A DNA stretch of 39,228 nucleotides from a virus, in the IMG/VR virus record IMGVR_UViG_3300037010_001530, positions 1 to 39,228 of that record; one strand, written 5' to 3'. The position numbers were made by a program, and so were the translations under genes. Positions 8,509 through 24,026 of this stretch are shown here, piece after piece (positions within the stretch are counted from its first letter, which is position 1; each line of letters begins with the position of its first letter). The notes beneath the pieces were generated by a model, which was not told the origin of the DNA, did no database searches, and was given only the letters and a program-made list of their open reading frames with translations.

Positions 8509-8518
8509 TCAATCCCAC
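8198..8518 (-). CDS. Doubtful ORF after the primase gene
   Basis: 106 codons starting inside the last bases of the primase gene and ending with TAA immediately before the next ATG. The spacing would suit translational coupling. Against it, the product has unusual composition (many Arg, Gly, His, Trp, Cys), and the frame spans the 12-bp inverted repeat and the CG-rich block. There is no family resemblance. Confidence 0.2.
   Translation of the reverse strand: MGLTARMHQAVMGTAGPMGHCGPAWRTGVGDHDGLHDQHCFGAGRVCWTSQVIDLQRLSGIRPARPPTPRTHAYVCGRGRRWAGGGGRAYACATRFYWTSGRKEKR
8383..8413. repeat. Perfect 12-bp inverted repeat with 7-base loop
   Basis: CACGACCAGCAC (8383-8394), loop CAAAACA, GTGCTGGTCGTG (8402-8413). 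It is symmetric in DNA and could act as a hairpin in RNA from either strand or as a protein-binding palindrome. There is no adjacent T-run. Confidence 0.8.
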
Positions 8519-11061
8519 GGCGGCACCTCATCCTCATTTGTCTGCGTTGGCCCAGCCACCGCAACGGCCGCTGGCGGCGTTTTAGCGACTGCCAAGCTAC
8601 GCAAATACCCTCGTGGACGATTGCGGCCCTGAGTCCATTTATGCGACTCAAAGCCAAGCATCTTCATCGCGTTACCCACGCTGCGCTGCATCGTCCCCGC
8701 CCGGTCCACTTTGCCCACATCAATGTGCAGCGCCTTCACCAGCAACTCGTGCGTGCTGAAGAACTCACGATCAATGTTTGGTAAAGGCACACCATGGGCT
8801 GACAAACAGCCATCATGGTGTTCCACCATCTCATCAGAGTTGACGTAACGCGCCAGGGCGTCATGCCACACATCCACAAACTTCCACTTGTCCTGTTCCG
8901 GGAAAAACAGACGCTTTTCTTCAGCCTTGTCCGGGAAGCGTTTGATGCCCTGCTTGTAGCAATGCACCGCCTCAGCCAGCAACTGGGCGCGGTATGAAAT
9001 CATCTTGGCCACATCGATGTCAGCACAGTGCACCACCCAAAAGCGCCGGTCGCCCGTGGCATCGCGCAAGAACTCACCCTGGTTGGTGTCACCCGTTAAC
9101 ACGCAGTTGCGCGGGAAGGCCTGGAAGCCTTTGGCATAAGGTGGCCTGAAGCGATCAGTCCGCTCGGTGATAAAGCCCTTGATTGCCGTGCTTTCAGAGC
9201 GGCTCAGCGCATCCAGCTCATTGAAGTTAAAGATCAGCCTGCCCTGCAGCGCCTGGAGCGAATCCTTGTCACCAATGCGGAATGACCCCGCACCGTAATA
9301 GTCGCCGCCCAGCACCTGCAGCACGCTGGACTTACCAGCCCCCTGCGCACCCTGCAGCACCAGCATGTAATCCATTTGGCAACCAGGCTCAAACACCCGG
9401 GCCACCAATGACAGCAAAAAGTATTCGCTGACCGCCGCCACATACTCGGTGTTGGCTGCACCCAGGCACTCCACCATCCAACGGTGTCGCCGCCCAATGC
9501 CGTCCCACTCCACAGATTCCAGGTCCTCACGCACCGGGTTGTGCACGTTGTCGTGTGCAGACATCAATACGGCTTGCTCAATCGTCACCGGGTTGCCAAC
9601 AATCAGCCCATGCCTACTGGCGACGTACTCAGCCAGCCGAATATCGTCTAGCACCTCTTTCCATTCGCCCAGCTTGCCACCCCATGGAGGTATGCGCACC
9701 TTGTCAATGCGCTGGCTGAATTCGTTGTAGCGCACCAGCTCGCGCAGGGCTGGGTCTTCGCGCAGGGCAAAGTACACGTTCTCGCGTATGCCTTTGATTT
9801 CCCATTTGTCAGTCAGATACGGGAAGTTCAGCCGCGCCCAGCCTTCACCCTCACCGCCGTGGCCACCGCCAGGCCCGCCTCTTGAGCCCCCTTCGCCGGG
9901 AGGCATGGCGTTCGATTTTTTTTCTGGTTTGCTTTCTGGCTCGGCAATCAGCTGCTCTCGCGCTACCGCCAGGCCTTCGGCAACGTGCAGGTCATTGAAG
10001 TCCGTCAGATCTTCAGCCCGGCCAGCAAAGCGTGGCAGCACCACATGCGCACCACAGCGCTTGGCCACTGCAAAGGCCTTGGCGCGGCCAGCATTCTCGA
10101 TCTTGAGCAACTGCGTGGTGCCATCCACCGTGAGCGAGCCTTCGATGTAATACACATCGCACTTGTCCTTGGCCCAGCGTGCTTTCAGATCCACCACCCG
10201 GTTGTCTGGCAGCTCCCAGCGCATGTCGCGCAGGCCACCGGCGCTCTTGGCAAAGTCAACGGGCTTGATGCCCACACCATGCGTCTGCAGCCGCTCGCAC
10301 AGGCGGCGCACCAGGTGCCGGTCATCATCCGCAAAAATCACAAACTTCTTGTCTGGGTACAGCTTGCGCCAGGCCATCACCACCGGCATGATGTTGCCCG
10401 CATCAAAGCAGGCCACCACAGGCCAGCCCGTGGCCATGTGCCCGCTGGCTGCCGTGGCATACCCTTCAGCAAACGCCACTGGCAAATCGTCTGCCAAATC
10501 ACCAAGCTGGTGGAAGTGCCCTTCTTTCACCGTGCCGGTGCCAAACACCTTGCCACCCTCACGGTTGATCCACTGCAGCCCGTGCAGGTTGCCAGCCAGA
10601 TCCACCAGCGGCACCACCACCGAGCCAAAGGCAAAGCGCACACCATAGGCGCCCACCTGCTTGCGCTGCAGGTAGTCACTGACGCCCTCTGGCCGTGCCC
10701 GCGCCCACAGCTTGCTGGCCTTGTCAACCGCAGCTGATGCAGCAGCCTTGCGGTCTTCGTCCGCCTCTTTTTCCAGTGCCTTGCGTCGCTCAAGCCATGC
10801 GGTTTTTTCAGCGGGCGACCATTCCACCTGCGTAGGTTCAATGGCCCAGTGTTCATCGCGTATGCCATAACGGCCCACGATGTACACCTTGCCCGACTTG
10901 GGGCTGGCCCACTCATAGAGCACAGCCCAGGCGTTCTTTTTCTTGGGCTTGCGGGCGTCCCCCGCCCAGGTCATTTTTTTGCCGTCAGTAAACAGATCCT
11001 TTGGCGGAACAATGTCCCGCTCACGCATCTGGTTTAAGACGTCGTCAATCGAAAGTGCCAA
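8509..11061 (-). CDS. Toprim primase fused to VirE-family helicase
   Basis: 850 residues. The first half holds a Toprim domain: FAEGYATA with the acidic residue E199, VACFDAGN around D220 and FADDD at 243-247. That is the layout of phage primases that copy RNA primers. A Gly-rich linker (about 385-405) separates it from a VirE/VapE-type P-loop ATPase, with Walker A GAQGAGKS at 571-578 and Walker B LIFNFNELDAL around 612-622. ITERTDRFRPPYAK and a CVLTGDTN sensor segment follow. The fusion should prime and unwind DNA at the phage origin in the host cytoplasm. It is the main replication gene of the early minus-strand operon, and no separate helicase or polymerase is seen. Confidence 0.9.
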   Translation of the reverse strand: MALSIDDVLNQMRERDIVPPKDLFTDGKKMTWAGDARKPKKKNAWAVLYEWASPKSGKVYIVGRYGIRDEHWAIEPTQVEWSPAEKTAWLERRKALEKEADEDRKAAASAAVDKASKLWARARPEGVSDYLQRKQVGAYGVRFAFGSVVVPLVDLAGNLHGLQWINREGGKVFGTGTVKEGHFHQLGDLADDLPVAFAEGYATAASGHMATGWPVVACFDAGNIMPVVMAWRKLYPDKKFVIFADDDRHLVRRLCERLQTHGVGIKPVDFAKSAGGLRDMRWELPDNRVVDLKARWAKDKCDVYYIEGSLTVDGTTQLLKIENAGRAKAFAVAKRCGAHVVLPRFAGRAEDLTDFNDLHVAEGLAVAREQLIAEPESKPEKKSNAMPPGEGGSRGGPGGGHGGEGEGWARLNFPYLTDKWEIKGIRENVYFALREDPALRELVRYNEFSQRIDKVRIPPWGGKLGEWKEVLDDIRLAEYVASRHGLIVGNPVTIEQAVLMSAHDNVHNPVREDLESVEWDGIGRRHRWMVECLGAANTEYVAAVSEYFLLSLVARVFEPGCQMDYMLVLQGAQGAGKSSVLQVLGGDYYGAGSFRIGDKDSLQALQGRLIFNFNELDALSRSESTAIKGFITERTDRFRPPYAKGFQAFPRNCVLTGDTNQGEFLRDATGDRRFWVVHCADIDVAKMISYRAQLLAEAVHCYKQGIKRFPDKAEEKRLFFPEQDKWKFVDVWHDALARYVNSDEMVEHHDGCLSAHGVPLPNIDREFFSTHELLVKALHIDVGKVDRAGTMQRSVGNAMKMLGFESHKWTQGRNRPRGYLRSLAVAKTPPAAVAVAGPTQTNEDEVPPWD

Positions 11062-11861: not shown

Positions 11862-12113
11862 TCACACCCCCTGCCCTTGCTGGGCCAGCTCTGGCCAATA
11901 GAACGCGAACTTTTCCGGCCAGCGTTCACGGCGGTTGAATCGGCCTTCGCTTTTGATCTCGATCTGCCCAGCCAGCTCTCGCAAGCGGCCCTCGGGTATG
12001 CCGTCCTCCAACCAAGCGTGAACAGATGGCGGTTTGATCCCCAACATGCGGGCCACAGCCGTGACCCCGCCAAGCAGATGAATGATTTCGGTGTCGGTCA
12101 TAGTGGTACACAT
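11862..12113 (-). CDS. Cro-like repressor
   Basis: 83 residues (or 79 from ATG 12101, MTDTEIIHLLGG). The HTH is GGVTAVARMLGIKPPSVHAW followed by LEDGIPEGRLRELAGQIEI, characteristic of the small Cro/YdaS-type repressors of lambdoid phages. It is divergent from the CI-like gene, with three operators between them. It should bind these operators and lower repressor synthesis during lytic growth. It is the first gene of the early minus-strand operon. Confidence 0.85.
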   Translation of the reverse strand: MCTTMTDTEIIHLLGGVTAVARMLGIKPPSVHAWLEDGIPEGRLRELAGQIEIKSEGRFNRRERWPEKFAFYWPELAQQGQGV

Positions 12114-12114
12114 C

Positions 12115-12176
12115 TTAGCTACAACTAACCTATAAATCTAGCCCCAACTAACTTTTATTTTGTTAGGCTCAACTAA
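12115..12176. promoter_or_regulatory. Immunity operators O1-O3 between CI-like and Cro-like genes
   Basis: Three 14-bp sites in the same orientation: TTAGCTACAACTAA (12115-12128), CTAGCCCCAACTAA (12138-12151) and TTAGGCTCAACTAA (12163-12176). Their spacing is 23 and 25 bp. Consensus YTAGSYHCAACTAA is an imperfect palindrome with TTAG and CTAA half-sites. The third overlaps the start codon of the repressor gene. The arrangement is that of a lambda-type OR with divergent promoters. A possible plus-strand -10 box TATAAA lies at 12131-12136; the exact promoters are not clear. Confidence 0.85.
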
Positions 12177-12733: not shown

Positions 12734-13228
12734 ATGGGTATTGGAAGACTGTTGACATGGGGTTTTTCGGCCATGCTGATCCTCATTCCGTTCAATTGGA
12801 TCAAACTGTGGCTTACCAACGACCTGCCGGAATCATCCAGCGCGTCGGATCTGTTTCTTTGGGCTGGCGGCCTTTGGGCGCTAGGTGGGGGATTAGCGTA
12901 CTTCCTGATCGTCAGCGCCCGCGGACTCAAAAGCCTCAACGAAAAATCATCTAGTGCATTGCTTGCCCCGAACCGGGCAGCCGAACAATGCTCATTAAAG
13001 ATTGTTTATTTAGACGCTAACGACCAAAAAACAACGCGCGACATTCACCCCTGTAGAACCGGCGCGACCAATCGCAAGTTCTATGCATGGTGCGCGCTGC
13101 GCCAAGAACGCCGCACATTCCTTTTTGAAGGCATTCAAAGCGGCGTTGACCTAACAACGGGAGAAATCCTTTCTCGCGTTGACATTTTCAGAAAAATTCA
13201 CCCAACCAGGAAAGTACCTTTTATATGA
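12734..13228 (+). CDS. Two-TM membrane protein with WYL-like domain
   Basis: 164 residues; TAGGAG precedes ATG 12734. Two membrane helices lie at about 8-27 and 38-61. The cytoplasmic part (about 85-155: LKIVYLDANDQKTTRDIHP, FYAWCALRQERRTFLFEGI, TTGEIL) follows the pattern of WYL-like domains: a beta-barrel with an R...TF.....I core, often found in regulators and bacterial conflict proteins. It lies just after the repressor and should be made in the lysogen. A role in superinfection exclusion or host defence is inference. The alternative is an ordinary lysogenic-conversion membrane protein. Confidence 0.7.
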   Translation: MGIGRLLTWGFSAMLILIPFNWIKLWLTNDLPESSSASDLFLWAGGLWALGGGLAYFLIVSARGLKSLNEKSSSALLAPNRAAEQCSLKIVYLDANDQKTTRDIHPCRTGATNRKFYAWCALRQERRTFLFEGIQSGVDLTTGEILSRVDIFRKIHPTRKVPFI

Positions 13229-13771: not shown

Positions 13772-14017
13772 ATGAACGGCATCGTCCGCATCCTTTCCAG
13801 ATCGCGACTGCGAGCCGCCGTCGAGACGGACGATGGCTTCACGGTCTTCGACCTGGATGATGTAATGGTGGATTTGGGACACACCGTTAGCGGATGCCTA
13901 AACCAGCACGGAGCCGTGGATCTGTCCAATCTAAGCACCACACATACATTTTCCGCATACGTTGAAGCCATTCAGGCCACCAGAGCAAACGCTGAATGTC
14001 TGTGTCGTAGTAGGTAG
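13772..14017 (+). CDS. Small hypothetical protein of the lysogeny operon
   Basis: 81 residues. The N-terminal half (GIVRILSRSRLRAAVETDDG then FTVFDLDDVMVDLGHTV) looks like a small beta-barrel (OB/SH3-like). The C-terminus is HTFSAYVEAIQATR. No clear ribosome-binding site is seen. It is the last gene before the terminator at 14052. No function is recognised. Confidence 0.6.
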   Translation: MNGIVRILSRSRLRAAVETDDGFTVFDLDDVMVDLGHTVSGCLNQHGAVDLSNLSTTHTFSAYVEAIQATRANAECLCRSR

Positions 14018-14051
14018 TGCACGAGAAGAACAAGCCTCGTGTCGTGGCATC

Positions 14052-14077
14052 AACGATCCTTTGGGGTCGTTTTTTTT
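14052..14077 (+). terminator. Rho-independent terminator of the lysogeny operon
   Basis: AACGATCC, loop TTTG, GGGTCGTT, then a run of T to 14077. The 8-pair stem includes one U-G. It separates the repressor operon from the retroelement operon, which therefore needs its own promoter. Confidence 0.9.
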
Positions 14078-14139
14078 CGTCTGTCATTGTGAAATCCTTA
14101 TCCCGGCACCATGCCGGGTGCTGGATTATTGCAAATAAG

Positions 14140-14181
14140 TTAGTTACAGCTATTGACGGCAAGTTAGTTTGTGCTAATAAT
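14140..14181 (+). promoter_or_regulatory. Promoter of the retroelement operon with two immunity operators
   Basis: The -35 box TTGACG (14153-14158) and -10 box AATAAT (14176-14181) are 17 bp apart, a strong sigma-70 promoter. TTAGTTACAGCTAT (14140-14153) touches the -35 box and TTAGTTTGTGCTAA (14164-14177) fills the spacer. These are the reverse orientation of the O1-O3 consensus (TTAGTTG...CTAA), and their 24-bp spacing matches the 23/25 bp in the immunity region. Repressor bound here would block RNA polymerase. A small GC hairpin CCCGGCA/TGCCGGG lies upstream at 14102-14118. Confidence 0.85.
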
Positions 14182-14223
14182 CTACTCCAACCCACCCCTC
14201 CCCAGGTGGTCAAGGAGTGAACA

Positions 14224-14841
14224 GTGTCAGCCTTCAAATTCAAACTGGGCCAGCAAGCCCGCATCATCGTCAGCGGTGAAATCGGCGAAGTCATTGCCGT
14301 CGCTGAATACCTGCACGCAGAGAACAGCTACTGCCTGCGCTACAAATCCGCAGATGGCCGCGCCAATGAAGCATGGTGGGCAGAGTCCTCTTTGCAGGCT
14401 GGCGAAGCTGCCACCACACCAGCACCGACCCAATCCACCACCCCACCGCCCATAGGCCAACCTTGGCCGGGCCAAGGCGGCATCTACGCCGGCATTGCCG
14501 GTGACATCGAAGGCGGCGCACCCGGCCACCTGATCCTGCTTGACGGTAAGCCGGTCGATGAACTGTCCTGGCAATACGCCGTCAAGTGGGGCCAGGACCA
14601 AGGCGAAGGCGCACGCCTGCCCACCAAGGCCGAGGCCGCACTGTTGTTCGCCAACCTGCCAGATGCGTTTGAGAAAACTTGGCACTGGACCGGCACGCAG
14701 TACTCAGCCGACTACGCCTGGTATCAGTACTTCGATTACGGCACCCAGGACATCGGCTTCAAGCACGACACAGGCAGGGCCAGGGCTGTCCGCAGATCGG
14801 TTCTTGAATCCTTCAATCCTTTGGTTTCGGGGGCCGTATGA
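14224..14841 (+). CDS. DGR target protein 1: SH3-like domain plus C-type-lectin-like variable domain
   Basis: 205 residues from GTG 14224 with AAGGAG upstream. Residues 1-56 (FKLGQQARIIVSGEIGEVIA, then YCLRYKSADGRANEAWW) look like a small SH3/KOW-type barrel. A Thr/Pro linker follows to about 77. From about 78 (IGQPWPGQGGIYAGI, LPTKAEAALLF, WHWTGTQYS) it is a DUF1566-like C-type-lectin-fold domain, the usual DGR scaffold. Residues 157-191 are encoded by the variable repeat. Compared with the template, Asn codons are changed to Asp, Tyr, Thr, Gly, Phe and His. There is no signal peptide or tail-attachment module, so it is probably cytoplasmic until released. First gene of the operon. Its binding partner is unknown. 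Confidence 0.9.
   Translation: MSAFKFKLGQQARIIVSGEIGEVIAVAEYLHAENSYCLRYKSADGRANEAWWAESSLQAGEAATTPAPTQSTTPPPIGQPWPGQGGIYAGIAGDIEGGAPGHLILLDGKPVDELSWQYAVKWGQDQGEGARLPTKAEAALLFANLPDAFEKTWHWTGTQYSADYAWYQYFDYGTQDIGFKHDTGRARAVRRSVLESFNPLVSGAV
14694..14797 (+). repeat. Variable repeat VR1
   Basis: Aligns without gaps to the template at 20444-20547. Inside 20445-20547 it differs at 14 positions, all adenine in the template. The last 27 bases (from CAGGCAGGGC to CGCAGAT) are identical and GC-rich, like the initiation-of-mutagenic-homing segment of other DGRs. The first base (C against template A) may mark the boundary. Confidence 0.97.
14801..14823 (+). repeat. VR-associated pyrimidine element, copy 1
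   Basis: TTCTTGAATCCTTCAATCCTTT begins 3 bases after the VR core ends and lies inside the target coding sequence. The same element, at the same offset, follows VR2 but not the template. It contains the short tandem unit AATCCTT twice. Confidence 0.7.
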
Positions 14842-15011
14842 CCTACCGCCAAGCCTTTGACCGACTAGGCAACCCAGTTGCCCGCCGCGTGCGTTTTGTC
14901 TGGCTGCGCCGCATTGCCGAATCCATCGACGCCGACGGCGTTGCCATCGTTGTGGGCACGATCACCGCCGTTGCCATCGTCGGCATGTGGATGTCGGGGG
15001 TGTACCTATGA
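14838..15011 (+). CDS. Small single-TM protein
   Basis: 57 residues; start and stop are both 4-bp ATGA overlaps with neighbours. A basic N-terminal region (RLGNPVARRVRFVWLRRIAE) precedes one membrane helix (GVAIVVGTITAVAIVGMW). It is too short for a family call. It sits between target 1 and the exonuclease. Possibly holin-like or a membrane anchor; nothing decides this. Confidence 0.7.
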   Translation: MTYRQAFDRLGNPVARRVRFVWLRRIAESIDADGVAIVVGTITAVAIVGMWMSGVYL

Positions 15012-15574
15012 GCCACGACATCATGCTGGACCTTGAGACGTTGGCCACCACGTCTGATGCCATCATTCTGAGCATCGGCGCAGTGCGTTTTGACCTGGAC
15101 GCGGGGCTGGTCTTTGACGAACCCGAGTCCGTGTTTTACCAAAGTATCGCCATCGACAGCCAACTCGATCGCAAGATCAGCGGCAGCACCCTTGCCTGGT
15201 GGATGATGCAGAGCAACGAAGCCCGCGCGGTGTTTTGTGAACCCAATGGCACGCTTTACGACGCGCTCGACGGACTAGGGGCATGGATTGCCCCGCAGCT
15301 CGACACCCAAACCCATGTCTGGAGCAACGGCGCCGACTTTGATCTACCCATGTTGGTGCACGCCTACGACCAGCTTGAGCTATCTCTGCCTTGGCCTGTC
15401 TACGGTGGCCGCTGCTACCGCACCTACAAAAACCTGCCTGGTGCACGCGGCGTGAAGGTGCTTCGCCAAGGCCTGCATCACAACGCGCTTGACGATGCCA
15501 TTTTTCAGGCCAAGCACCTGTGCGCTATCCACCGGGCATTGTTTCAAGCCACCGCAGCCGAGGTGGCAACATGA
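15008..15574 (+). CDS. DEDD-family 3'-5' exonuclease (Rv2179c-like)
   Basis: 188 residues from ATG 15008, which overlaps the previous stop; an upstream ATG at 14987 is out of operon register. Motif Exo I is MLDLETLA, Exo II lies around WSNGADFDLP, and Exo III is HNALDDAIFQA with the His and Asp four residues apart. These are the four acidic residues and His of DEDDh nucleases. The family resemblance is to the Rv2179c-type exoribonucleases of phages and actinobacteria, which trim RNA or DNA from the 3' end with two metals. Within this operon it could process the retroelement RNA or cDNA, or act on host RNA; that is speculation. Confidence 0.88.
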   Translation: MSHDIMLDLETLATTSDAIILSIGAVRFDLDAGLVFDEPESVFYQSIAIDSQLDRKISGSTLAWWMMQSNEARAVFCEPNGTLYDALDGLGAWIAPQLDTQTHVWSNGADFDLPMLVHAYDQLELSLPWPVYGGRCYRTYKNLPGARGVKVLRQGLHHNALDDAIFQAKHLCAIHRALFQATAAEVAT

Positions 15575-15738
15575 ACGAATTCGACGACTTGGACAAACTC
15601 ACCCCGCACTGGTGGGAAAGCGCCGCGCTGATGGGCGCCCTAGCCATGATCATCCTGTTCGTGGTCGGCTGCATCAGCTTCACCACCGGTTACGCCTGGG
15701 GCTACTTGCACGCTGGCATTTTGGCTGTGCTGGGCTAG
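15571..15738 (+). CDS. Small single-TM protein
   Basis: 55 residues, coupled to the exonuclease by ATGA. An acidic start (MNEFDDLDKLTPHWWE) is followed by a long hydrophobic helix (ALMGALAMIILFVVGCISF) and a second short apolar stretch. It is the second small membrane protein in this operon. No family is recognised. Confidence 0.7.
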   Translation: MNEFDDLDKLTPHWWESAALMGALAMIILFVVGCISFTTGYAWGYLHAGILAVLG

Positions 15739-15741
15739 GCC

Positions 15742-16071
15742 ATGAAGCCCGCCGCCACCAATGCCGCCCTGCTGGAATACACCGGCACCCTGATTGCTGA
15801 CGCTCAGGCTCGCACCAAGGTGCTTGATGCCGAAGGCCACAGCGTGCCGGTGGTGTGTCTGGACCTAGAGCTTGACAACGCTTTGCACAACCTCATGCGG
15901 GCTGAGCAACTCTTCCCGCTTGACCACTATGCCCAAGCCCATGCGCGCGCGCACCAACTCAAAAAAGGCATGCGCGTTGCCGTGCAAGCCCCGCCCATTG
16001 ATCTGCGGCTAATTGCATGTAACGCCGCGCATATCCACGTTATCAACCCCACCGACCAACCAGCATCATGA
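15742..16071 (+). CDS. Hypothetical protein, possibly OB-fold nucleic-acid-binding
   Basis: 109 residues. Beta-rich segments TGTLIADAQARTKVL, VPVVCLDLEL, KKGMRVAVQAPPIDLRLI and AAHIHVI follow the strand order of an OB-fold and recall small phage single-strand-binding proteins. It starts 3 bases after the previous stop and overlaps the next gene by ATGA. The SSB idea is weak, as no aromatic DNA-contact pattern is obvious. Confidence 0.65.
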   Translation: MKPAATNAALLEYTGTLIADAQARTKVLDAEGHSVPVVCLDLELDNALHNLMRAEQLFPLDHYAQAHARAHQLKKGMRVAVQAPPIDLRLIACNAAHIHVINPTDQPAS

Positions 16072-16364
16072 AAATGCCTACCCCACCCAACCCCGAAGCC
16101 ATTCGCTTTGAAGCCCAAAAAGCAGCCTGGCTGTACGACACGGTCATTCAAGGTTGCCCCTATCCGTTTGGCACTGAAGCTGCCCGCATCTTCAAGACCG
16201 AGTTTGACATTGCCAAACAAGCCCAGGCTGACGCAGGCGCACCGGCACCCAAGGTTCCATCGCCCAACCAAAACAAGATGGCTGACAAGTATGACCCGCC
16301 CGCCCGCACCTACTACCGCAACAACGGCAACGTCCACGTGCCCAGCGCGGGCGTGCCCTGCTGA
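16068..16364 (+). CDS. Hypothetical protein
   Basis: 98 residues, ATGA-coupled to the gene before. The N-terminal about 55 residues are helical (PEAIRFEAQKAAWLYDTVI, then EAARIFKTEFDIAKQAQ). The remainder is a Pro/Asn-rich tail ending HVPSAGVPC. No motif is recognised. Confidence 0.6.
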   Translation: MKMPTPPNPEAIRFEAQKAAWLYDTVIQGCPYPFGTEAARIFKTEFDIAKQAQADAGAPAPKVPSPNQNKMADKYDPPARTYYRNNGNVHVPSAGVPC

Positions 16365-16380
16365 TCCAGAGGCCAGCACC

Positions 16381-16782
16381 ATGAACCACGAAAACTACCA
16401 ATTCAAGCCTTTTACTGGTCTGGTGATTTCAGGCCCCCAAGGCAGCGGTAAAACAACTCTGGCACAAACCATTGCCAGTCAGTACGGAGAGTTTCGACAA
16501 ATAGAAACAGGACCAGGCTGCTACTTTGATCGGGAAGTGCACAAAGCGCTTTACAGCGAGGCCAAGACGCTGATCATCAACGGCATACCGTCTCAAGACG
16601 AACTTGCGGTCATAAAGAGCATGGTGACCAGCCGCACCATGGCGGTCCGGCGGCCCTATACCGAAACACCAATCAGCAGGCCTTCGCCAAAAATCATTCT
16701 GTGCACCGAGCACGCAGATTGGCTACCCGATGAGTCGCGGCGCTTCGAAGTCATCCAGCTCAGCCAAAGGAAATCATCATGA
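16381..16782 (+). CDS. Small P-loop NTPase
   Basis: 133 residues from ATG 16381 (the frame is open further upstream but overlaps the previous gene; AGAGG lies before this start). Walker A is SGPQGSGKTTLA near residues 17-28. A hydrophobic strand KTLIINGIP and a late strand KIILCTEHADWLP could serve as Walker B and sensor strands. The fold is minimal, and no clear acidic Walker B is seen. It is coupled by ATGA to parB. It is not a deviant-Walker ParA. It may be a kinase-like or helper ATPase for the ParB-type protein. Confidence 0.75.
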   Translation: MNHENYQFKPFTGLVISGPQGSGKTTLAQTIASQYGEFRQIETGPGCYFDREVHKALYSEAKTLIINGIPSQDELAVIKSMVTSRTMAVRRPYTETPISRPSPKIILCTEHADWLPDESRRFEVIQLSQRKSS

Positions 16783-18914
16783 GCATTCAATTCGCTACCC
16801 TCCCGTTAAGCGCCGTCGTCAGCAGCCTGACTAACCCGCGCAAAACATTCAACGCCACCAAGCTGGCCGAGCTGGCCGCCAGCATTCAGGCCAGCGGCGT
16901 GCACCAGCCCATCCTGGTGCGCCCACTACCAGGCAGCCGCACCGCAGACACGGATCGCGCAGTCACGCACGAAATCGTCAGCGGCGAGCGGCGCTACCGT
17001 GCCAGCCAGCAAGCCGGTGCCACCAGCATCCCCGCCATGATCCGGGAGCTGACCGACAACCAGGTGCTTGAAATCCAACTTGTCGAAAACCTGCAACGTG
17101 ATGACCTCACCGAATTGGAAGAGGCCGAAGGCTACCAGGCACTGATGCACGCCAGCAGCATGACGGCTGACGCCATTGCTGCCAAGATCGGCAAAAGCCG
17201 CAGCTACGTGTTTGCCAGGCTCAAGCTGTTGGACCTGTGCCCAGAGTCCCGCACCGCCCTGCATGACGGCACCATAGACGCCAGCCGCGCCCTGATGCTG
17301 GCCCGCATCCCAGACCACAAGCTGCAGATCAAGGCGCTGGCTGAGATCACCCAAAAGGACTACAACGGCGAGCAATACATGAGCGTGCGCGGTGCGTCCG
17401 CCCACATCCAGCAACTGTACATGCTGCGCCTAGACGCCGCCCCGTTCAAGCCCACCGACACCACCTTGTGCCCCGAGGCCGGATCGTGCAAGGCCTGCAG
17501 CAAACGCACCGGCCACGACCCCGACCTGTTTGCCGACGTGAAAGGTGCAGACGTCTGCACCGACCCACCTTGCTACCACCGCAAAGAGCAAGCCCACAGC
17601 GCGGCCCAGCTCAAGGCCGCGCACGACCGGGGCCAGACCATCATCGAGGGCCGTGAAGCCAAAGCCCTCATGCCCAACAGCTATGGCAAGGTCGAAGGCT
17701 ACCTGCGCCTGGACGAAGCCCGTGACAGCCCCACCGACAAGCCCCTGCGCAAATTGCTGGGCAAGCAACTCGCGGCCGAAGGCATCCAGCCCACCCTGAT
17801 TGCCAACCCGCACAAAGCCGGTGAGCTGATCGCCGTGCTGCCTGAGGCCAAGGTCGCCCAGCTGCTCAAAGCTCAGGGTCAGGACGATGCGGCCAGCAAG
17901 GTCAGTCAACACGTCAAAGACAGCAAAAAGGCTGAGGCCGCTGCAGCCAAACAAAAGCTGGAAACCGAGTACGAACAAGGCTGGCGTCACGCGGTGCTTG
18001 AGCGCACCTGGGCAAAAATCCAGAACGACGGCGAAGAAGCCAGCCTGACCGACAAGCTCTTGCGCTACCTGGCCATGGGTTACGCCAAAAGCTGCAACAC
18101 CGACCGCGCCAAGCGCCTGGGCAAGCTGCTTAACCTGGGCAAGGTCGCACCGCTGCAAGGCCTCACCGACTACGTGCGCGACTGCGAGCACCCGCAAGAC
18201 GTGCTGCAGCTGCTGGTGATGCATGCCGATGTGGAATACCGCAGCTGGCTGCCTGCCGAAGACAGCAACGCTGGCCTGCTGTTGGTGGCGTCCGACTACC
18301 AGGTGGACATTGATGAAGTCAAAGACGAGATCAAGGCCCAGATGCGCAGCGCCATGCCCCAAGCCAGCCCCATCATGTACCGTGGCCCCAATGGCGAGAC
18401 ATGGTCCGGCCGTGGCCTCAAACCCAAATGGGTCACCCACTACCTGGCCACCGGCGGCGAACTGGCTGACTTGCAGGTCAACCCATCGCCAAAAACACCC
18501 CTACCCCAATCCCCCGCTGCGCAAGCGCAGGGTATGGGTAAGGCCAAAAAGCCAAAAACCTCTGCTGCGCAAGCCCAAGCCCTGATTGCTGCTGCGCTGC
18601 AGAGTCAAGAGTCAGAGACCAATCCAGGCGCTGACGCGCAGGGCAACCTGCCTGACAGTAGCCAGCCTGTAGCCACGTCCGCCGCTGGCGCGTCGGGTGT
18701 GGCTCAGGCTGAAGCATTTACCGTTGGCCAGCGGGTGCGTATTACCACCAACCGCGACAAGCTGGGCATCATTGCCCGCAAGTGGGGCGGCAAAGAAGGC
18801 ACGGTCACACGCCGTGAGTCAGGTGGTGGCTACTGGGACGTGACCTTTCGCGGCCGCAACGGCGGCGTGGCCCTGTTCGCGGCTGACCAGATTGACCAGG
18901 TGGTGCCCGCATGA
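16779..18914 (+). CDS. Large ParB-family protein with C-terminal SH3-like domain
   Basis: 711 residues, about twice the length of ordinary ParB. The N-terminal ParB/Srx domain carries TNPRKTF, the GERRYRA box (69-75) and ENLQRDDL (103-110). A HTH follows (about 129-150, MTADAIAAKIGKSRSYVFAR). Five Cys at 231, 237, 240, 260 and 265 suggest a zinc site. A long helical region and an Ala/Gln-rich linker lead to a C-terminal barrel (about 646-711: FTVGQRVRITTNRDKLGI, then GGYWDVTFRG). ParB-type domains bind CTP and load on DNA, and some phage forms are nucleases. There is no ParA, so segregation is unlikely to be its only role. Confidence 0.9.
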   Translation: MSIQFATLPLSAVVSSLTNPRKTFNATKLAELAASIQASGVHQPILVRPLPGSRTADTDRAVTHEIVSGERRYRASQQAGATSIPAMIRELTDNQVLEIQLVENLQRDDLTELEEAEGYQALMHASSMTADAIAAKIGKSRSYVFARLKLLDLCPESRTALHDGTIDASRALMLARIPDHKLQIKALAEITQKDYNGEQYMSVRGASAHIQQLYMLRLDAAPFKPTDTTLCPEAGSCKACSKRTGHDPDLFADVKGADVCTDPPCYHRKEQAHSAAQLKAAHDRGQTIIEGREAKALMPNSYGKVEGYLRLDEARDSPTDKPLRKLLGKQLAAEGIQPTLIANPHKAGELIAVLPEAKVAQLLKAQGQDDAASKVSQHVKDSKKAEAAAAKQKLETEYEQGWRHAVLERTWAKIQNDGEEASLTDKLLRYLAMGYAKSCNTDRAKRLGKLLNLGKVAPLQGLTDYVRDCEHPQDVLQLLVMHADVEYRSWLPAEDSNAGLLLVASDYQVDIDEVKDEIKAQMRSAMPQASPIMYRGPNGETWSGRGLKPKWVTHYLATGGELADLQVNPSPKTPLPQSPAAQAQGMGKAKKPKTSAAQAQALIAAALQSQESETNPGADAQGNLPDSSQPVATSAAGASGVAQAEAFTVGQRVRITTNRDKLGIIARKWGGKEGTVTRRESGGGYWDVTFRGRNGGVALFAADQIDQVVPA

Positions 18915-19411
18915 GCACCCGCCCCAAACGCAAACCCCGCTGGCTGCCCACGCCCGACACCTTGGCGCTGGCCCTGCACCATGCTGCCAAGCCCCCGGCA
19001 GCTGACATACAAGACCTACTGCACACCCTGCAAGACGCCCACCGGTGCATGCGTGAAGGCGTCGCAACCAGCCGCCACTGGGCTATTTTGGCAGGCGCTT
19101 TGTCAGCCGCGCAGGCCATCGAGCGCCGGGGCATTGTGCGTGGCCTGGCTGGCCACCTCAACGCCGCCACACCCGCGCTGGATGCCATCTACCTTCGGGC
19201 TATGAAAACAGGCACCTGGCGTGCCACCGCTTTGCGCTACGACGAACTGGATGCCATCGCCACTCTCGCTGAACTTCACACCTTCCAGATCCACCAGCTG
19301 GGCCGTGCAGAGCTGCTGGCCGCTATCGCCAGCGCTGCAAACAAGATTCGCGCCAACGGCGACACCGTCACCCTTTCCCAAACCCCCAACCTTGAAAGAC
19401 TCGCAGCATGA
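18911..19411 (+). CDS. Hypothetical helical protein
   Basis: 166 residues, joined to parB and to target 2 by ATGA overlaps on both sides. A basic start (STRPKRKPRWLP) is followed by an all-helical body (DIQDLLHTLQDAHRCMREGV, LAGALSAAQAIERRGIVRGL, LDAIATLAELHTFQIHQLGR). It has no signal or TM segment. No family is recognised. Its place next to the ParB-like gene suggests a partner, without proof. Confidence 0.7.
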   Translation: MSTRPKRKPRWLPTPDTLALALHHAAKPPAADIQDLLHTLQDAHRCMREGVATSRHWAILAGALSAAQAIERRGIVRGLAGHLNAATPALDAIYLRAMKTGTWRATALRYDELDAIATLAELHTFQIHQLGRAELLAAIASAANKIRANGDTVTLSQTPNLERLAA

Positions 19412-19893
19412 CGACTACCACACCCACACCCCGCATCGGTCAACCCTGGCCAGACCAAGGCGGCATCTACGCCGGCATCATGGCCGGGCGCGATGGACAG
19501 CCTGATTACCACCTGATCCTGGCACCGGCTGAAGCAGGCGCGTTTAAAGACGTTGAATGGGGCCCCTACGGCAAAAGCATCGACGGTGCTGCCAGCTACT
19601 TTGACGGCGTGGCCAACACCGCTGCCATGGCTGCAGCTGACCTTGACCTGGCCAAGCGCATCTTGGCGCTGCAGATCGACGGCCATGCCGATTACCACCT
19701 GCCCAGCCAGGCCGAAGCCCACCTGCTGGCAGCCAATCTCAAAGACCAGTTCGAGCAGGACGACTTTTACTGGACCAGCACGCAGTACTCAGCCTACGGC
19801 GCCTGGACTCAGGACTTCAGGGACGGCTACCAGTTCATCCTCACCAAGGGCTACCCAGGCAGGGCCAGGGCTGTCCGCAGATTAATTCTTTAA
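19408..19893 (+). CDS. DGR target protein 2: C-type-lectin-like variable protein
   Basis: 161 residues, ATGA-coupled to the gene before. It lacks the SH3-like domain of target 1 and begins directly with the shared scaffold (IGQPWPDQGGIYAGIMAGRD). DLAKRILALQIDG, LPSQAEAHLLAANL and FYWTSTQYS follow, the DUF1566-like lectin fold. Residues 124-158 are the variable repeat, with Tyr, Gly, Asp, Arg, Phe, Leu and Pro replacing template Asn/Lys. The protein ends RRLIL just after it. It directly precedes avd, the same order as mtd-avd-TR-RT in Bordetella phage BPP-1. It has no tail-binding part, signal peptide or TM segment. Confidence 0.9.
   Translation: MTTTTPTPRIGQPWPDQGGIYAGIMAGRDGQPDYHLILAPAEAGAFKDVEWGPYGKSIDGAASYFDGVANTAAMAAADLDLAKRILALQIDGHADYHLPSQAEAHLLAANLKDQFEQDDFYWTSTQYSAYGAWTQDFRDGYQFILTKGYPGRARAVRRLIL
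19779..19882 (+). repeat. Variable repeat VR2
   Basis: Aligns without gaps to the template 20444-20547. Inside 20445-20547 it differs at 18 template adenines and at one T (20472, T to A). The 3' segment is identical to the template for 28 bases (to CGCAGATT). Together VR1 and VR2 vary at 21 of the 34 adenines between 20445 and 20520. Confidence 0.97.
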
Positions 19894-19907
19894 TCCTTTA
19901 GTCCTTT
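19886..19907 (+). repeat. VR-associated pyrimidine element, copy 2
   Basis: TTCTTTAATCCTTTAGTCCTTT matches copy 1 at 14801 in 19 of 22 bases, at the same distance from the VR core. Here it contains the stop codon of target 2 and is otherwise non-coding, so its conservation is at DNA level, not protein level. Confidence 0.7.
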
Positions 19908-19912
19908 ACAAC

Positions 19913-20272
19913 ATGAGCCTTCACACTGATCTACCCATTTATAAGAAGGGCTGTGACCTCTTGCGGCTGGCGTTCAACGTCCAGCAGCAAATGCCACGCA
20001 GCTTCAAGCGTACCCTGGGCGAAAAGATCACCGTGCACTGCACGGACATGCTTGACCTCATGGCCATGGCCAACGCCACCCAGGGCACCAACCGGGTGGT
20101 GCACATCCGCGAACTGCTCAAGCTGCAACACACCACCACAGTGTTGCTGCGGGTGTGCCATGACATGCGCTTTATCTCCCCCAAGGTGTGGGCTGACTCA
20201 GTGCAGCTGCTGGGCACCATTGGCAAGCAAGGTGGTGGCTGGCTCAAATCGGTTAAGGCGCCTGCAGCATGA
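19913..20272 (+). CDS. avd: Accessory variability determinant Avd
   Basis: 119 residues, basic and all-helical, with the four-helix-bundle pattern of Avd: LPIYKKGCDLLRLAFNVQQQ, MPRSFKRTLGEKITVHCTDM, HIRELLKLQHTTTVLLRVCH, ISPKVWADSVQLLGTIGKQ. Avd forms a barrel-like pentamer that binds reverse transcriptase and template RNA and is needed for mutagenic homing in BPP-1. It lies between VR2 and the template, as in BPP-1. It starts 19 bases after target 2 without a clear ribosome-binding site and ends in an ATGA overlap with the reading frame that leads into the reverse transcriptase. Confidence 0.9.
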   Translation: MSLHTDLPIYKKGCDLLRLAFNVQQQMPRSFKRTLGEKITVHCTDMLDLMAMANATQGTNRVVHIRELLKLQHTTTVLLRVCHDMRFISPKVWADSVQLLGTIGKQGGGWLKSVKAPAA

Positions 20273-20443
20273 AGGTCAAGGCCCCCATGCCCGTGCGCAC
20301 ATTGAATCTGGTCGTGCCGCTGGGCCACAAGCCCACCGCCATGCGCACCACAGACACCGCTGCACCCGTGCAGGCCTGGTCTGGCGCAGTTGCCCCGCTG
20401 ATCGGCCCAGGCCTTCGGCGCGGTGATGTAGATAGCACGCATC

Positions 20444-20547
20444 AACGCAGTACTCAGCCAACAACGCCTGGTATCAGAACTTCAAAAACGGCAACCAGAA
20501 CATCAACAACAAGAACAACACAGGCAGGGCCAGGGCTGTCCGCAGAT
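20444..20547 (+). repeat. DGR template repeat TR
   Basis: The A-rich copy from which both variable repeats are written. Read in the frame of the targets it encodes TQYSANNAWYQNFKNG and NQNINNKNNTGRAR, a run of Asn (AAC) codons typical of templates. The 3' part from 20521 is GC-rich and identical in all three copies. It is transcribed as part of the operon between avd and the reverse transcriptase, and its RNA is copied with errors at adenines. One AAT-type codon appears to have become TAT (20472-20474). Confidence 0.97.
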
Positions 20548-20565
20548 TCAACCCCCTACGCATTC

Positions 20566-21648
20566 GTGGACCTGGTGCAAGCCTACCTCGATTGCCGCGC
20601 CACTAAGCGCAACACCGCCAGCGCGCTGGCGTTTGAAGAGCGGCTGGAAGCCAACCTGGTCAACCTGCACGACGATTTGTGCAGCGGCCACTACCGCCCC
20701 GGCCGCTCTATCTGTTTTGTCAACCTGCGCCCCAAACCGCGTGAGGTATGGGCCGCCGCGTTTCGCGACCGCATCGTTCACCATCTGCTTTACAACCACA
20801 TCAGCCCCCGGTTTTACGCCAGCTTCATTGCCAACAGCTGCGCCTGCATCCCCGGCCGTGGCACCCTGTACGCTGCCCAGCGGCTGGAGCACAGCGTGCG
20901 GTCCATCACCCAGAACTGGAGCGTGCCAGCCCACTACCTCAAGATGGACTTGGCCAACTTCTTTGTCGCCATCGACAAGCACGTGCTGCGGGCCCAGATC
21001 GCCCAGCGCGTCACAGAGCCGTTCTGGTTGGCGCTGGCAGACACCATCCTGTTTCATGACCCGCGCCAGGACGTAGAGCTGCGTGGCGACAGTGCCAGGC
21101 TCGCCCTGGTGCCACCGCACAAACGCCTGATGAATGCGCCCAGCCACTGCGGGCTGCCCATAGGCAACCTCAGCTCACAGTTCTTTGCCAACATCTACCT
21201 GGACGCGTTGGACCAGTTCTGCAAACACCAGGTGGGTGCCAAGCACTATGTGCGCTATGTGGACGACTTCATCATCCTGCACCCCTCACCCCAGTGGTTG
21301 CACCAGGCGCTGGCCAGAATCACCGCGTGGCTGCCAGAGCACCTGGGTGCACACCTTAACCCCACCAAGACCATCCTGCAGCCCATAGCGCGCGGCATTG
21401 ACTTCGTGGGCCACGTGATCAAGCCCTGGCGCCGCACCACCCGCAAGCGCACCCTGGCCACCGCCGTGAGCCGCTTGCGCACCATGCCCTCTGCAGACGT
21501 GTTTACGGCAGGCAATTCATACCTTGGGCTGATTGGCCAAGCCAGTCACGCCCACACCGATCGCGCCACGCTGGCCAACGTCCTGCTGAGGCGCGGCCAT
21601 GCGGTGAAGAACGACTTTTCAAAGATTTACAGGAGGCACACCCCATGA
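20566..21648 (+). CDS. DGR reverse transcriptase
   Basis: 360 residues if started at GTG 20566, just after the template; 459 if started at ATG 20269, which overlaps the avd stop as ATGA and reads through the template in another frame. The short form matches the usual DGR RT length and begins where the RT fold begins. Motifs by short numbering: catalytic Asp in LKMDLANFF (D128), the DGR hallmark GLPIGNLSSQ (196-205, SQ in place of the QG of group II intron and retron RTs), and YVDD (231-234). A thumb-like basic tail (RRTTRKRTLATAV) follows. It copies template RNA into adenine-mutated cDNA that replaces VR1 or VR2. No start has a strong ribosome-binding site. Confidence 0.95.
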   Translation: MDLVQAYLDCRATKRNTASALAFEERLEANLVNLHDDLCSGHYRPGRSICFVNLRPKPREVWAAAFRDRIVHHLLYNHISPRFYASFIANSCACIPGRGTLYAAQRLEHSVRSITQNWSVPAHYLKMDLANFFVAIDKHVLRAQIAQRVTEPFWLALADTILFHDPRQDVELRGDSARLALVPPHKRLMNAPSHCGLPIGNLSSQFFANIYLDALDQFCKHQVGAKHYVRYVDDFIILHPSPQWLHQALARITAWLPEHLGAHLNPTKTILQPIARGIDFVGHVIKPWRRTTRKRTLATAVSRLRTMPSADVFTAGNSYLGLIGQASHAHTDRATLANVLLRRGHAVKNDFSKIYRRHTP

Positions 21649-21854
21649 GAGCCAGCCCCACCGAGGTGGTTGAAATCCAATGCGAAGTCAAGCGCCAGAC
21701 CGACAAAGCGTGGCTGGTGTTTGACGGCGCGCGCGAGGTCTGGATTGCGAAGTCGCAGATCAGCGATTACGTCGAAGAGCAAGGCCAGATCAGCAAGAAG
21801 GTCACCAGCGTGTTTATCCCGCTGTGGCTGGCACATGAGAAGGGGTTGATATGA
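21645..21854 (+). CDS. Small hypothetical protein
   Basis: 69 residues, ATGA-coupled to the reverse transcriptase and to the HNH gene. A small beta-barrel pattern, VEIQCEVKRQTDKAWLVFDG then REVWIAKSQISDY, is common in short phage proteins of unknown role. It ends PLWLAHEKGLI. It may be an OB/SH3-like nucleic-acid or protein binder. Confidence 0.7.
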   Translation: MRASPTEVVEIQCEVKRQTDKAWLVFDGAREVWIAKSQISDYVEEQGQISKKVTSVFIPLWLAHEKGLI

Positions 21855-22354
21855 AAGCGCAAACTCTTACAGCTGAACGACTTAGAGAGTTGGTCAACTA
21901 TGACCCAGATTCAGGCTTGTTTTTTCGTCTAAAAAAGCCATTTCGTGGTTTTGGATCAATTGGTGATCAACTTGGGATATTGACCAAATTCGGCTACTTG
22001 GTATTTCGAGTTGATGGTACTCAGCACCGTGCCCATCGTCTTGCATTTTTGTACATGACTGGTGCATGGCCGGACTCAGTAATTGATCACATGGATGGTG
22101 ATAGAACAAACAATAAATGGTCAAACTTGCGAAGTGTTTCCGAAAGTGTCAATCAACAAAATCGCAGAGCCGCGCAAAAAGGCAATAGCAGTGGTGTGCT
22201 TGGTGCTAGCTACAGCTCCAGAAAAAGAAAGTGGCGGTCATCAATTCGCGTAAATGGTAAATGGGTTGGCTTAGGTTATTACTCAACGCCAGAAGATGCT
22301 GGCAATGCATATCTTGTTGCCAAACGCAAATTTCATGAAGGGTGCATGATATGA
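21851..22354 (+). CDS. HNH endonuclease with AP2-like DNA-binding domain
   Basis: 167 residues. The N-terminal half has an HNH core: HRAHRLAFLYMTGAWP, then VIDHMDGDRTNNKWSNLRSV. The C-terminal about 55 residues (GVLGASYSSRKRKWRSSIRV, then GYYSTPEDAGNAY) form an AP2-type DNA-binding domain. This architecture is that of free-standing phage homing endonucleases, which cut DNA lacking them and spread by repair. The gene is visibly richer in A and T than its neighbours, which suggests recent entry. It keeps ATGA junctions on both sides, so the insertion did not break the operon. Confidence 0.9.
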   Translation: MKAQTLTAERLRELVNYDPDSGLFFRLKKPFRGFGSIGDQLGILTKFGYLVFRVDGTQHRAHRLAFLYMTGAWPDSVIDHMDGDRTNNKWSNLRSVSESVNQQNRRAAQKGNSSGVLGASYSSRKRKWRSSIRVNGKWVGLGYYSTPEDAGNAYLVAKRKFHEGCMI

Positions 22355-22575
22355 CCAACACCGACCCCGTAAACCACCCACCCCATTACACCAGCCATCC
22401 GAGCGGTGTGGAGTGCATCCAAGTTGTGGAGCACATGGGCTTCAACCTGGGCAATGCCATCAAGTACGTCTGGCGGGCAGACCTCAAACATGACGCCGTG
22501 GAAGACCTGCGCAAAGCCCGCTGGTACATCGAGCGCGAGATACAAAAGCGCACGCGCTTGGAGGTGATCAAATGA
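22351..22575 (+). CDS. DUF3310 protein
   Basis: 74 residues from ATG 22351 in the ATGA overlap. The sequence HPPHYTSHPSGVECIQVVEH and IKYVWRADLKHDAVEDLRKA matches the DUF3310 family (SaV-like), small phage proteins often near nucleotide-metabolism or replication genes. The His-rich start and helical remainder resemble MazG-type helices. Biochemical role unknown. Confidence 0.85.
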   Translation: MTNTDPVNHPPHYTSHPSGVECIQVVEHMGFNLGNAIKYVWRADLKHDAVEDLRKARWYIEREIQKRTRLEVIK

Positions 22576-22817
22576 ACGAAATATTGACCGAAGCCGAAGT
22601 GGCCGAGCTGCTTGACTGCGAACCCAGCACCGTGCAAACGCTTGCGCGTGAGGCCAAGATTCCGGCCATCAAGGCGGGGCGGTCTTGGCGCTTTCCACGG
22701 CAGGCGCTGCTGGATGCGCTGAACGATCAAGCCCGTGACAGAATGACCACCCGAGAGCAAGCGCAGCCCAGGGTGATCAAGGTGAAGCCGGTGCGACCTT
22801 GTTTGGTGGGGTTGTGA
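22572..22817 (+). CDS. Excisionase-like MerR/HTH_17 protein
   Basis: 81 residues. The N-terminus EILTEAEVAELLDCEPSTVQ, TLAREAKIPAIKAGRSWRFP is the winged helix of the excisionase family that also includes many phage Xis proteins. The basic tail is RVIKVKPVRPC. It is the last gene of the retroelement operon and faces the integrase end to end: the two stop codons abut in TGATCA. Being driven by the repressor-controlled promoter, it would be made on induction, as expected for an excision factor. Confidence 0.75.
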   Translation: MNEILTEAEVAELLDCEPSTVQTLAREAKIPAIKAGRSWRFPRQALLDALNDQARDRMTTREQAQPRVIKVKPVRPCLVGL

Positions 22818-23957
22818 TCACCCCAACCGCGCCGCCAAATCTTCCCCCCGCATAGACGCATAACGCAGGGCCATGCGGGTGTCGGCCCAGCCCATGATGC
22901 GGCAGACTTCAATCTCTGAAAACACCCAGCGCCCAGCTGCATCGCGCAGCTCAAACCAATCACAGGTTGCGCAGTGGCGCAGGTCATGCTCGGTGCAGTC
23001 AAGCACCTGGGCATAGGCAAACAGCGTGGCAAAGCGGGCGCTCAGGCGCATGGTGCAGCGGGGCTTGTCTTCTGGCGTGCCGTCCCACAAGTCAAACACC
23101 CGGCCCACCCTGGCCTTGCACCACTTCTGCATCAATGGGCGCAGCGGCTTGACCATGGGCACCACGCGGGGCTTGGTGGCGCCACGGTGGCCTTTACTGC
23201 CTTCCACCTTGATCACCCAGCGCACCATATCGATCTGATCCACCCGCAGGCGGTAGGCTTCGCTTAAGCGCATGCCGGTGGCCAGAATCAATTCAAACAG
23301 CAGGGCAAACCCTGCATCCTCGCCCCAGGCCCGCTGACGATCCGTCCGCACCTTGCCAGCCAGTGCATCACGCACGCGCACAAGCTCTGCCGCATCCAGC
23401 CGCCGATTGCGCTCCGTGTCGCGTTTGGGCTTCAATCCGGCTTTGGATAGCTGGGTAACCTCGGCTTTGGTGGGGCTGGCATAGCCGCGTGGCATTTGGC
23501 GCAAGGGGTTCACCGCCGCTTGGCCACGGCGCCGGTGGTGCCAATCAATGGCGCGGGCCAGCACCTCGACCCGCTTGCGGATGGTGCTGGGCGCCAGGTG
23601 GTCAGTCACTTTCATGCGGCCAACCCACAAATCGGCCCAGGTTGCGTTTACCTCGCTCAGCTTGGTGTTGCCCTCAGACCGGCTCACCAAATCAAGCACA
23701 GGCCGATCTGACGGGGCAATGTTTGAGTCGGCTAGGTACTGCTTGATGATCTTGGCCAAGCGGGTGTTATCGGTGCGAGTTTGGTCTTGCACCAGCAGCT
23801 CAGCGGGCACCATGCCACGGTCGAGCAGGCCTTCAAGCGTGGCGCCATAGGTCTTGGCCTCAGCCTCAGAATCAAACGTGCTGAAAAACGGTTTGGGCAG
23901 CAGCTTGTGGACAACCCGAAGCTGCCACCGACTGCCACGCGGTTGAATGCTGGCCAT
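22818..23957 (-). CDS. int: Tyrosine-recombinase integrase
   Basis: 379 residues from ATG 23957 (MASIQPRG; an in-frame ATG 15 bases upstream also exists). The N-terminus is an arm-binding domain followed by a SAM-like core-binding domain (about 60-150). The catalytic domain shows the Arg of LATGMRLSEAYRL (R230), a Lys in VEGSKGHRG, HDLRH (H324, R327), Trp in MGWADT (357) and the nucleophile Tyr in LRYASMRG (Y366). It integrates the phage at the bacterial tRNA-Cys gene whose 3' half lies 190 bases upstream. It is transcribed on its own, convergent to the excisionase-like gene. Confidence 0.95.
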   Translation of the reverse strand: MASIQPRGSRWQLRVVHKLLPKPFFSTFDSEAEAKTYGATLEGLLDRGMVPAELLVQDQTRTDNTRLAKIIKQYLADSNIAPSDRPVLDLVSRSEGNTKLSEVNATWADLWVGRMKVTDHLAPSTIRKRVEVLARAIDWHHRRRGQAAVNPLRQMPRGYASPTKAEVTQLSKAGLKPKRDTERNRRLDAAELVRVRDALAGKVRTDRQRAWGEDAGFALLFELILATGMRLSEAYRLRVDQIDMVRWVIKVEGSKGHRGATKPRVVPMVKPLRPLMQKWCKARVGRVFDLWDGTPEDKPRCTMRLSARFATLFAYAQVLDCTEHDLRHCATCDWFELRDAAGRWVFSEIEVCRIMGWADTRMALRYASMRGEDLAARLG

Positions 23958-23973
23958 GCCACCATTGTGCACA

Positions 23974-24008
23974 AAACTCGCCTAAACGGACAAACTCGCC
24001 TAGACGGA
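23974..24008. repeat. Tandem arm-type integrase sites
   Basis: AAACTCGCCTAAACGGA (23974-23990) and AAACTCGCCTAGACGGA (23992-24008) differ at one base and have an 18-bp period. They lie between int and the attP core. The second shares CTAGACGGA with the core itself (24175-24183). Most likely integrase arm-binding sites. Confidence 0.65.
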
Positions 24009-24026
24009 TACTTTTACAAAACCCAA

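Follow-up and report, generated by a model that had tools for sequence, protein, structure and literature searches.

The stretch of DNA analysed here (hereafter the window, 39,228 bases) is probably a complete phage genome, as it looks by its 126-base end repeat, and it carries a retroelement (DGR) with two hypervariable target genes. The locus raises the question of what controls this hypermutation machinery, and at which phase of phage life. A preliminary description had proposed the phage immunity repressor as the controlling factor. Our analysis supports this proposal: predicted lambda-type operators at OR and at PL make it very probable that the CI-like repressor controls the PL operon, which carries the DGR and its targets.

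Immunity genes and shared operator-like sites

In the window, the Cro-like gene heads a leftward PR-type operon consisting of cro, two small genes and the primase/helicase gene. Rightward from OR, the 151-aa repressor-like gene is followed by three small genes, a terminator-like hairpin, and finally OL with its promoter. The relevant features are the following.

8509 to 11061, minus strand: DNA primase/helicase of the PR-type operon, 850 aa (phrog_2249, E=6e-123)
11862 to 12113, minus strand: Cro-like gene, 83 aa (P22_Cro, E=1e-7, above the Pfam cut-off; PHROG transcription regulation)
12115 to 12128, minus strand: predicted OR operator adjoining cro, TTAGTTGTAGCTAA
12138 to 12151, minus strand: predicted middle OR operator, TTAGTTGGGGCTAG
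12163 to 12176, minus strand: predicted OR operator adjoining the cI start, TTAGTTGAGCCTAA
12176 to 12631, plus strand: CI-like repressor, 151 aa, HTH only (phrog_2328 transcriptional repressor, E=9e-13)
14052 to 14071, plus strand: intrinsic-terminator-like hairpin and T run, between the repressor-side genes and OL
14140 to 14153, plus strand: predicted upstream OL operator, abutting the -35, TTAGTTACAGCTAT
14153 to 14181, plus strand: PL-type sigma-70 promoter TTGACG-17-AATAAT, 10/12 consensus match
14164 to 14177, plus strand: predicted second OL operator, within the spacer and overlapping the -10, TTAGTTTGTGCTAA

The operator sites are asymmetric, with TTAGTT at one side and GCTAA at the other, and on the minus strand the OR sites read TTAGTTG...CTA(A/G). 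Their orientation relative to the lytic promoter is equal in both clusters, namely leftward with cro (12115-12176) and rightward with target 1 (14140-14177). The preliminary description had reported two sites within 14140-14177 that match the operators of the cI-cro gap, had likened their 24-bp spacing to that of OR, and had placed them over a strong promoter ahead of the first DGR target. These points were borne out: coordinates and sequence are correct, the start-to-start spacing is 24 at OL versus 23 and 25 at OR, and the promoter is the one given above. The observation of shared sites at OR and OL is thus confirmed as real.

Both site regions are AT-rich in a genome of 58.5% GC, a circumstance that could favour a chance likeness of two AT-rich intergenic regions. 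This explanation is hardly credible, being rejected by matrix, simulation and shuffle statistics as well as by the permutation of own pairs described below. Counting both strands of the 39,228-base window, there are only six copies of TTAGTT, and the OR and OL clusters account for five; TTAGTTNNNGCTA is present in the window at 12116, 12139, 14140 and 14164 only. When a matrix was derived from only the three OR sites, 14164 ranked 4th and 14140 6th in the window. Same-strand site pairs with a spacing of 20-26 were found neither in 2 Mb of Markov sequence nor in 20,000 simulated AT-rich 153-bp gaps. Finally, when the noncoding DNA of the early region was searched blind to the motif, the top result consisted of exactly the five OR and OL sites; in the shuffle control of this search, at least five sites in two clusters appeared in 1/600.

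Matching operator-like sites in related phages

Relatives were collected by their reverse transcriptase (RT), giving 80 loci from viral contigs and 80 from bacterial genomes, mostly Burkholderiales and Pseudomonas. The OR/OL match test was carried out on 73 non-redundant relatives whose RT was at least 62% identical. No motif was used in choosing the two regions. For OR, the divergent gap with the highest AT content was taken; for OL, it was the best-matching sigma-70 promoter located in noncoding DNA and followed by a plus-strand gene.

The OR and OL regions of the same phage shared a word (at least 12/14) in 42/73 phages (58%), a count to which chance would contribute about four at the 5.6% rate of non-own pairs and which contains some noise, with the pass of L034 (likely OL 3068-3098) and probably that of L136 resting on a mispicked promoter. 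In a permutation test of own pairing, the observed mean was not attained by any of 100,000 random pairings. The 31/73 failures are partly due to a wrong automatic choice of promoter or gap (L013 and L047 fail despite clear sites). No clean OR/OL pair was found in L172 (LPPA56) or in L170 (Cruim01), and the Cruim01 stretch that was analysed has no cI-cro gap. Lysogens found to carry both OR/OL and a DGR include Pseudomonas sp. GM18 (L111), Janthinobacterium fluminis hw3 (L131) and Pseudomonas bharatica CSV86 (L152). As own pairs match and non-own pairs seldom do, the operator type is own to each phage at both regions. Such a phage-specific operator type, read here from the sequences, would be the behaviour of an immunity system and is hard to explain otherwise.

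Motif-blind searches gave a similar picture. In the bacterial-genome set (isolates and MAGs), at least five sites in at least two clusters were detected in 17/73 loci versus 6/584 shuffles, and in the viral set 3+2 layouts were seen in many IMG/VR phages. These layouts use quite different, mostly near-palindromic words, e.g. TAGCGCCGCGCTAA, TGAACTTACGGTTC and ATAAGCCTGCTTAT. At the OL of relatives, the first site stands next to the -35 or ahead of it; the second occupies the spacer and extends into the -10. The top matches of the blind search in L006, L007, L088, L089 and L109 were discarded as operators, being repeats 3' of VRs.

The comparison also bears on the idea that the repeats are partition or replication sites, e.g. 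for the ParB-domain protein encoded within the operon (16779-18914). In most relatives examined, no ParB homologue was found between OL and RT and the layout is unchanged, so this reading was rejected; moreover, the repeats overlap the -35 and -10 of the promoter and recur in the cI-cro gap. We regard a partition function as very improbable. The immunity operators proposed here are in line with the 42/73 own matches versus 5.6% and with OL sites lying over a strong promoter, and to this extent the control of the retroelement operon by the repressor, as previously suggested, is supported.

The early operon and its retroelement

A run of 16 genes, all on the plus strand, extends from 14224 to 22817 and contains the two DGR targets together with Avd, the template RNA, RT and an excisionase-like gene. 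Apart from gaps of 3, about 16 and 19 nt, neighbouring genes in this run overlap by 4 nt at nearly every junction.

14224 to 14841, plus strand: DGR target 1, first operon gene (Lcl_C, weak; VR 14695-14797)
14838 to 19411, plus strand: genes between the targets, comprising small ORFs and the next four entries
15008 to 15574, plus strand: Rv2179c-like exoribonuclease
16381 to 16782, plus strand: VapE-like AAA fragment
16779 to 18914, plus strand: ParB/H-NS-domain protein, 711 aa (ParB_N, HTH_ParB, H-NS C-terminal domain)
18911 to 19411, plus strand: gene without assigned function
19408 to 19893, plus strand: DGR target 2 (Lcl_C, weak; VR 19780-19883)
19913 to 20272, plus strand: bAvd accessory protein (Pfam bAvd, E=8e-11)
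20256 to 20447, plus strand: Rfam RT-15 RNA, directly 5' of TR (RF03018, 172 bits, E=2e-41)
20445 to 20547, plus strand: template repeat (TR)
20269 to 21648, plus strand: reverse transcriptase (RVT_1, E=3e-15)
21645 to 22817, plus strand: operon end with a small ORF, an HNH endonuclease, a small ORF and an HTH_17 excisionase-like gene
22818 to 23972, minus strand: integrase

The DGR is genuine, since the mismatches between TR and VR fall at TR adenines (14/14 in target 1 and 18/19 in target 2). The RT and Avd genes adjoin TR. A repeat search over the whole genome found only these two VRs, and no further copy of TR was found in the 39-kb genome. The Lcl_C matches of both targets are below the Pfam cut-off, and target 2 gave no PDB sequence match. 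Starting at the Avd stop, the RT reading frame runs for 459 aa without a stop through the RT-15 RNA and TR, so that the true start may lie further in; the frame also passes through TR in some relatives, whereas in others it begins about 200-300 nt later.

Several further observations concern these genes. The fusion of ParB_N, HTH_ParB and H-NS domains is found here in the early operon of an integrase-bearing phage. RT-15 (RF03018) sits between Avd and TR in the window and in five relatives scanned, and is apparently the 5' portion of the template RNA of the DGR; no papers connecting RT-15 with DGRs were found in the open-access literature searched. Directly after the VR, following ...GTCCGCAG, lies a direct-repeat element with a period of 8 nt, MTTBANTN-MTTYANTN-MTT (14798-14825 and 19884-19908 in the window), which is seen 3' of VRs in most relatives. 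It is present at 227/288 VR-type sites, 1/122 TR-type sites and 1.6% of background stretches. In BPP-1, a hairpin lies downstream of VR (PMC3240598). The repeat element may serve this DGR family as its homing-site signal, replacing the BPP-1-type hairpin.

In 42 phages (including the window) and the Burkholderia phage Magia, 96/96 VRs share the strand of the operon and fall between RT and the chosen promoter, in a search that in most loci reached about 10 kb or less to each side of RT, so that more distant tail genes are possible there, and that in the window covered the whole genome. In 14 phages a VR lies at most 1.3 kb from the chosen promoter. The PL operon begins with a gene of the DGR target family, or has one close to its start, in the window, Magia (L167), L004, L013, L024, L051, L093, L098, L131, L154 and L160; in such phages more targets are found just before Avd, and three VRs can occur in a single locus.

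The probable extent of transcription from PL

The PL-type promoter is the sole match of 10/12 quality on the plus strand from 14000 to 24300. In the OR of the window, the consensus scan for PR and PRM gave at best 7/12 matches.

A boxA (as in lambda nutL) and a terminator upstream of OL are features of PL-type operons. In 11/42 relatives, boxA (CGCTCTTTAACA and close forms) was detected 61-89 nt beyond the start of the -35, against a background of 0.013 per 600 nt (L037, L040, L048, L067, L111, L113, L121, L145, L152, L155 and L160); an additional match in L016 lies at 486. These leaders are a sign of possible NusB-type antitermination ahead of the DGR operon. The leader of the window has no clear boxA: the 40 matches found at up to 3 mismatches are exactly the chance number, and therefore a window boxA is not claimed. 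A strict terminator upstream of OL was found in 9/42 relatives versus 6/840 shuffles. Pseudomonas-type relatives without boxA in the leader (L051, L063, L072, L073, L119 and L138) share a conserved leader segment (GGCAGCGATGAACCGGCCTCAACGGTTCAGAGGGTTGGCAACTGACCCGGG...), possibly an antitermination RNA.

These data can be set against the explanation that the operators govern only PL and the nearby early genes, while Avd, the template RNA and RT have a promoter of their own and are expressed in lysogens too. RT is indeed 6.5 kb away from PL, the operon contains one other plus-strand promoter-like match (a weak 9/12 at 16550), and consensus scans miss non-sigma-70 promoters. Nevertheless, we consider this arrangement unlikely: the gene overlaps run nearly throughout the operon, 37/42 phages have no second promoter of at least 9/12 before RT, and the 11 boxA-bearing relatives carry antitermination signals after PL. 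In the window, no plus-strand terminator-like site was detected between the PL promoter and RT. With genes continuous up to RT and no competing good promoter, the earlier notion of an operon-wide control reaching the DGR holds up.

The protein reading the sites

A family profile of the rightward OR-flanking genes matches the lambda repressor structure 3bdn (E=2e-28) and P22 C2. Of these genes, 26/42 contain HTH_3 and 20/42 an S24 peptidase. The leftward genes (n=42) include YdaS in 14, P22_Cro in 11 and Cro in 3 cases, and HTH_3 types are also found among them. In the case of the 151-aa repressor of the window, a search for close relatives returned only a fragment of the same phage, and a nucleotide search among phages gave nothing useful.

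Cro in lambda binds the operators of CI, and here the Cro-like protein probably binds the five sites too, by analogy. It could also be the sole reader, or the sites could belong to a different regulator, for example the weak WYL-like gene at 12734, rather than to the CI-like protein. The covariation between repressor and operator similarity is weak (Mantel r=0.10, p=0.007), which leaves some room for such a reader; for Cro it is lower still (r=0.055, p=0.10). Because both signals are weak, they were not used to assign the binding protein. The position of the sites next to the cI start is precisely that of OR, and the same layout occurs in relatives with an S24-type CI. Taken together, a reader other than the CI-like protein seems quite improbable. 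As a separate observation, the gene after the repressor (12734-13228) has a WYL-domain match below the Pfam cut-off and is possibly a lysogenic conversion gene.

The S24 self-cleavage and oligomerisation domain is a feature of lambda CI that serves RecA-type induction and not a feature of operator layout. No Peptidase_S24 match was found in the 151-aa repressor of the window. Therefore, what is claimed here is a lambda-type operator layout, not a lambda-type repressor. The preliminary description had the operon switching on at induction; the ordinary route of S24/RecA self-cleavage is unlikely for such a protein, so that the repressor, if inducible, would probably respond by another route.

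Proposed control of the DGR operon

Protein binding, the direction of control, the off state in lysogens and the timing of mutagenesis are what we infer from the sequence, as follows. The three OR sites in the cI-cro gap and the two OL sites on the promoter of a second early operon, 2 kb away, would form one lambda-type immunity system. In the lysogen, the 151-aa CI-like repressor would occupy OR and OL and keep both PR (cro, primase/helicase) and PL shut, and the hairpin at 14052-14071 would halt transcription arriving from the repressor-side genes. Upon loss of repression, or upon entry into a non-immune cell, PL would fire. The long PL transcript would then carry target 1, the nuclease and ParB-like genes, target 2, Avd, the RT-15/TR RNA, RT, HNH and the excisionase-like gene. 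As one transcript would carry the whole DGR, mutagenic homing would be limited to early induction or infection, at the time of phage DNA synthesis, and the two hypervariable proteins would be made early.

Extending this to a broad temperate-phage family of Burkholderiales and Pseudomonas is a bolder step, towards which we lean only slightly. Hypermutation would be tied to the exit from lysogeny, with the DGR machinery and all targets being early, repressor-controlled genes of the PL operon. The variable genes of a prophage would stay fixed and diversify only in lytic growth or infection, and the hypervariable proteins would act early in the cell and not as tail fibres. A repressor-run PL operon would be a concrete and testable answer for a large phage family, and it predicts frozen variable genes in prophages. 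It would tie mutagenic homing to the stage of phage DNA copying and recombination-gene expression, and it would make the DGR targets early, apparently non-structural proteins.

Comparison with known systems

The operator plan is the standard OR/OL-PL plan of lambda, which the preliminary description did not name. Lambda has three operators at OR and two over PL, with an operator spacing of 23-24. Likewise, the window has divergent cI- and cro-like HTH genes with three OR sites between them at spacings of 23 and 25, two OL sites over the -35 and -10 of a distant early promoter, and a PL operon with nuclease, recombination and excisionase-type genes; the boxA leader of some relatives resembles lambda nutL. 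Differences to lambda are that the PL operon here holds a whole DGR with its targets, that the repressor has 151 aa and no S24 domain, that the window has no clear boxA, and that its integrase is on the opposite strand.

The full plan is also seen in Magia (MT701587), a phage isolate, with OR sites at 3159/3182/3206 and OL sites at 3970/3994 over TTGACA-16-TATAAT. Its OL is followed by a DGR target, nuclease, RecT, ATPase, a second target, Avd, RT and integrase. Magia thus shares with the window the 3+2 layout and the order cro, immunity repressor, DGR target, nuclease, target, Avd and RT, whereas its operator is ATAACCAAAGTTAT and not TTAGTT... The Magia homologues of the DGR targets are annotated as having a lectin fold. 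The DGR and the repressor of Magia have already been reported, and the passages of the genome announcement dealing with them mention neither operators nor DGR control (PMC7883833).

The preliminary description had also stated that no DGR was known as an immunity-repressor regulon. This was too strong, and the idea of a repressor-held DGR is not wholly new: in the hankyphage, which like the window has a CI-like repressor (RepC), silencing of this repressor raised the expression of most phage genes and DGR activity, with the DGR being active in uninduced cultures too (PMC12135933). Unlike the window, the hankyphage is a transposable, Mu-like Bacteroides phage with a tail-fibre target, and the available part of that report describes no operator over a DGR operon promoter (PMC12135933). 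A non-exhaustive search of the open-access literature found no paper on a DGR in a PL operon or on operators mapped over a DGR promoter, and the placement of a DGR in the PL operon appears undescribed.

As to the retroelement itself, the DGR of Bordetella phage BPP-1 is characterized by TR and VR, Avd and adenine-specific mutagenesis, all of which are seen in the window. BPP-1 diversifies a tail tropism protein, whereas the two targets of the window both lie in the early operon.
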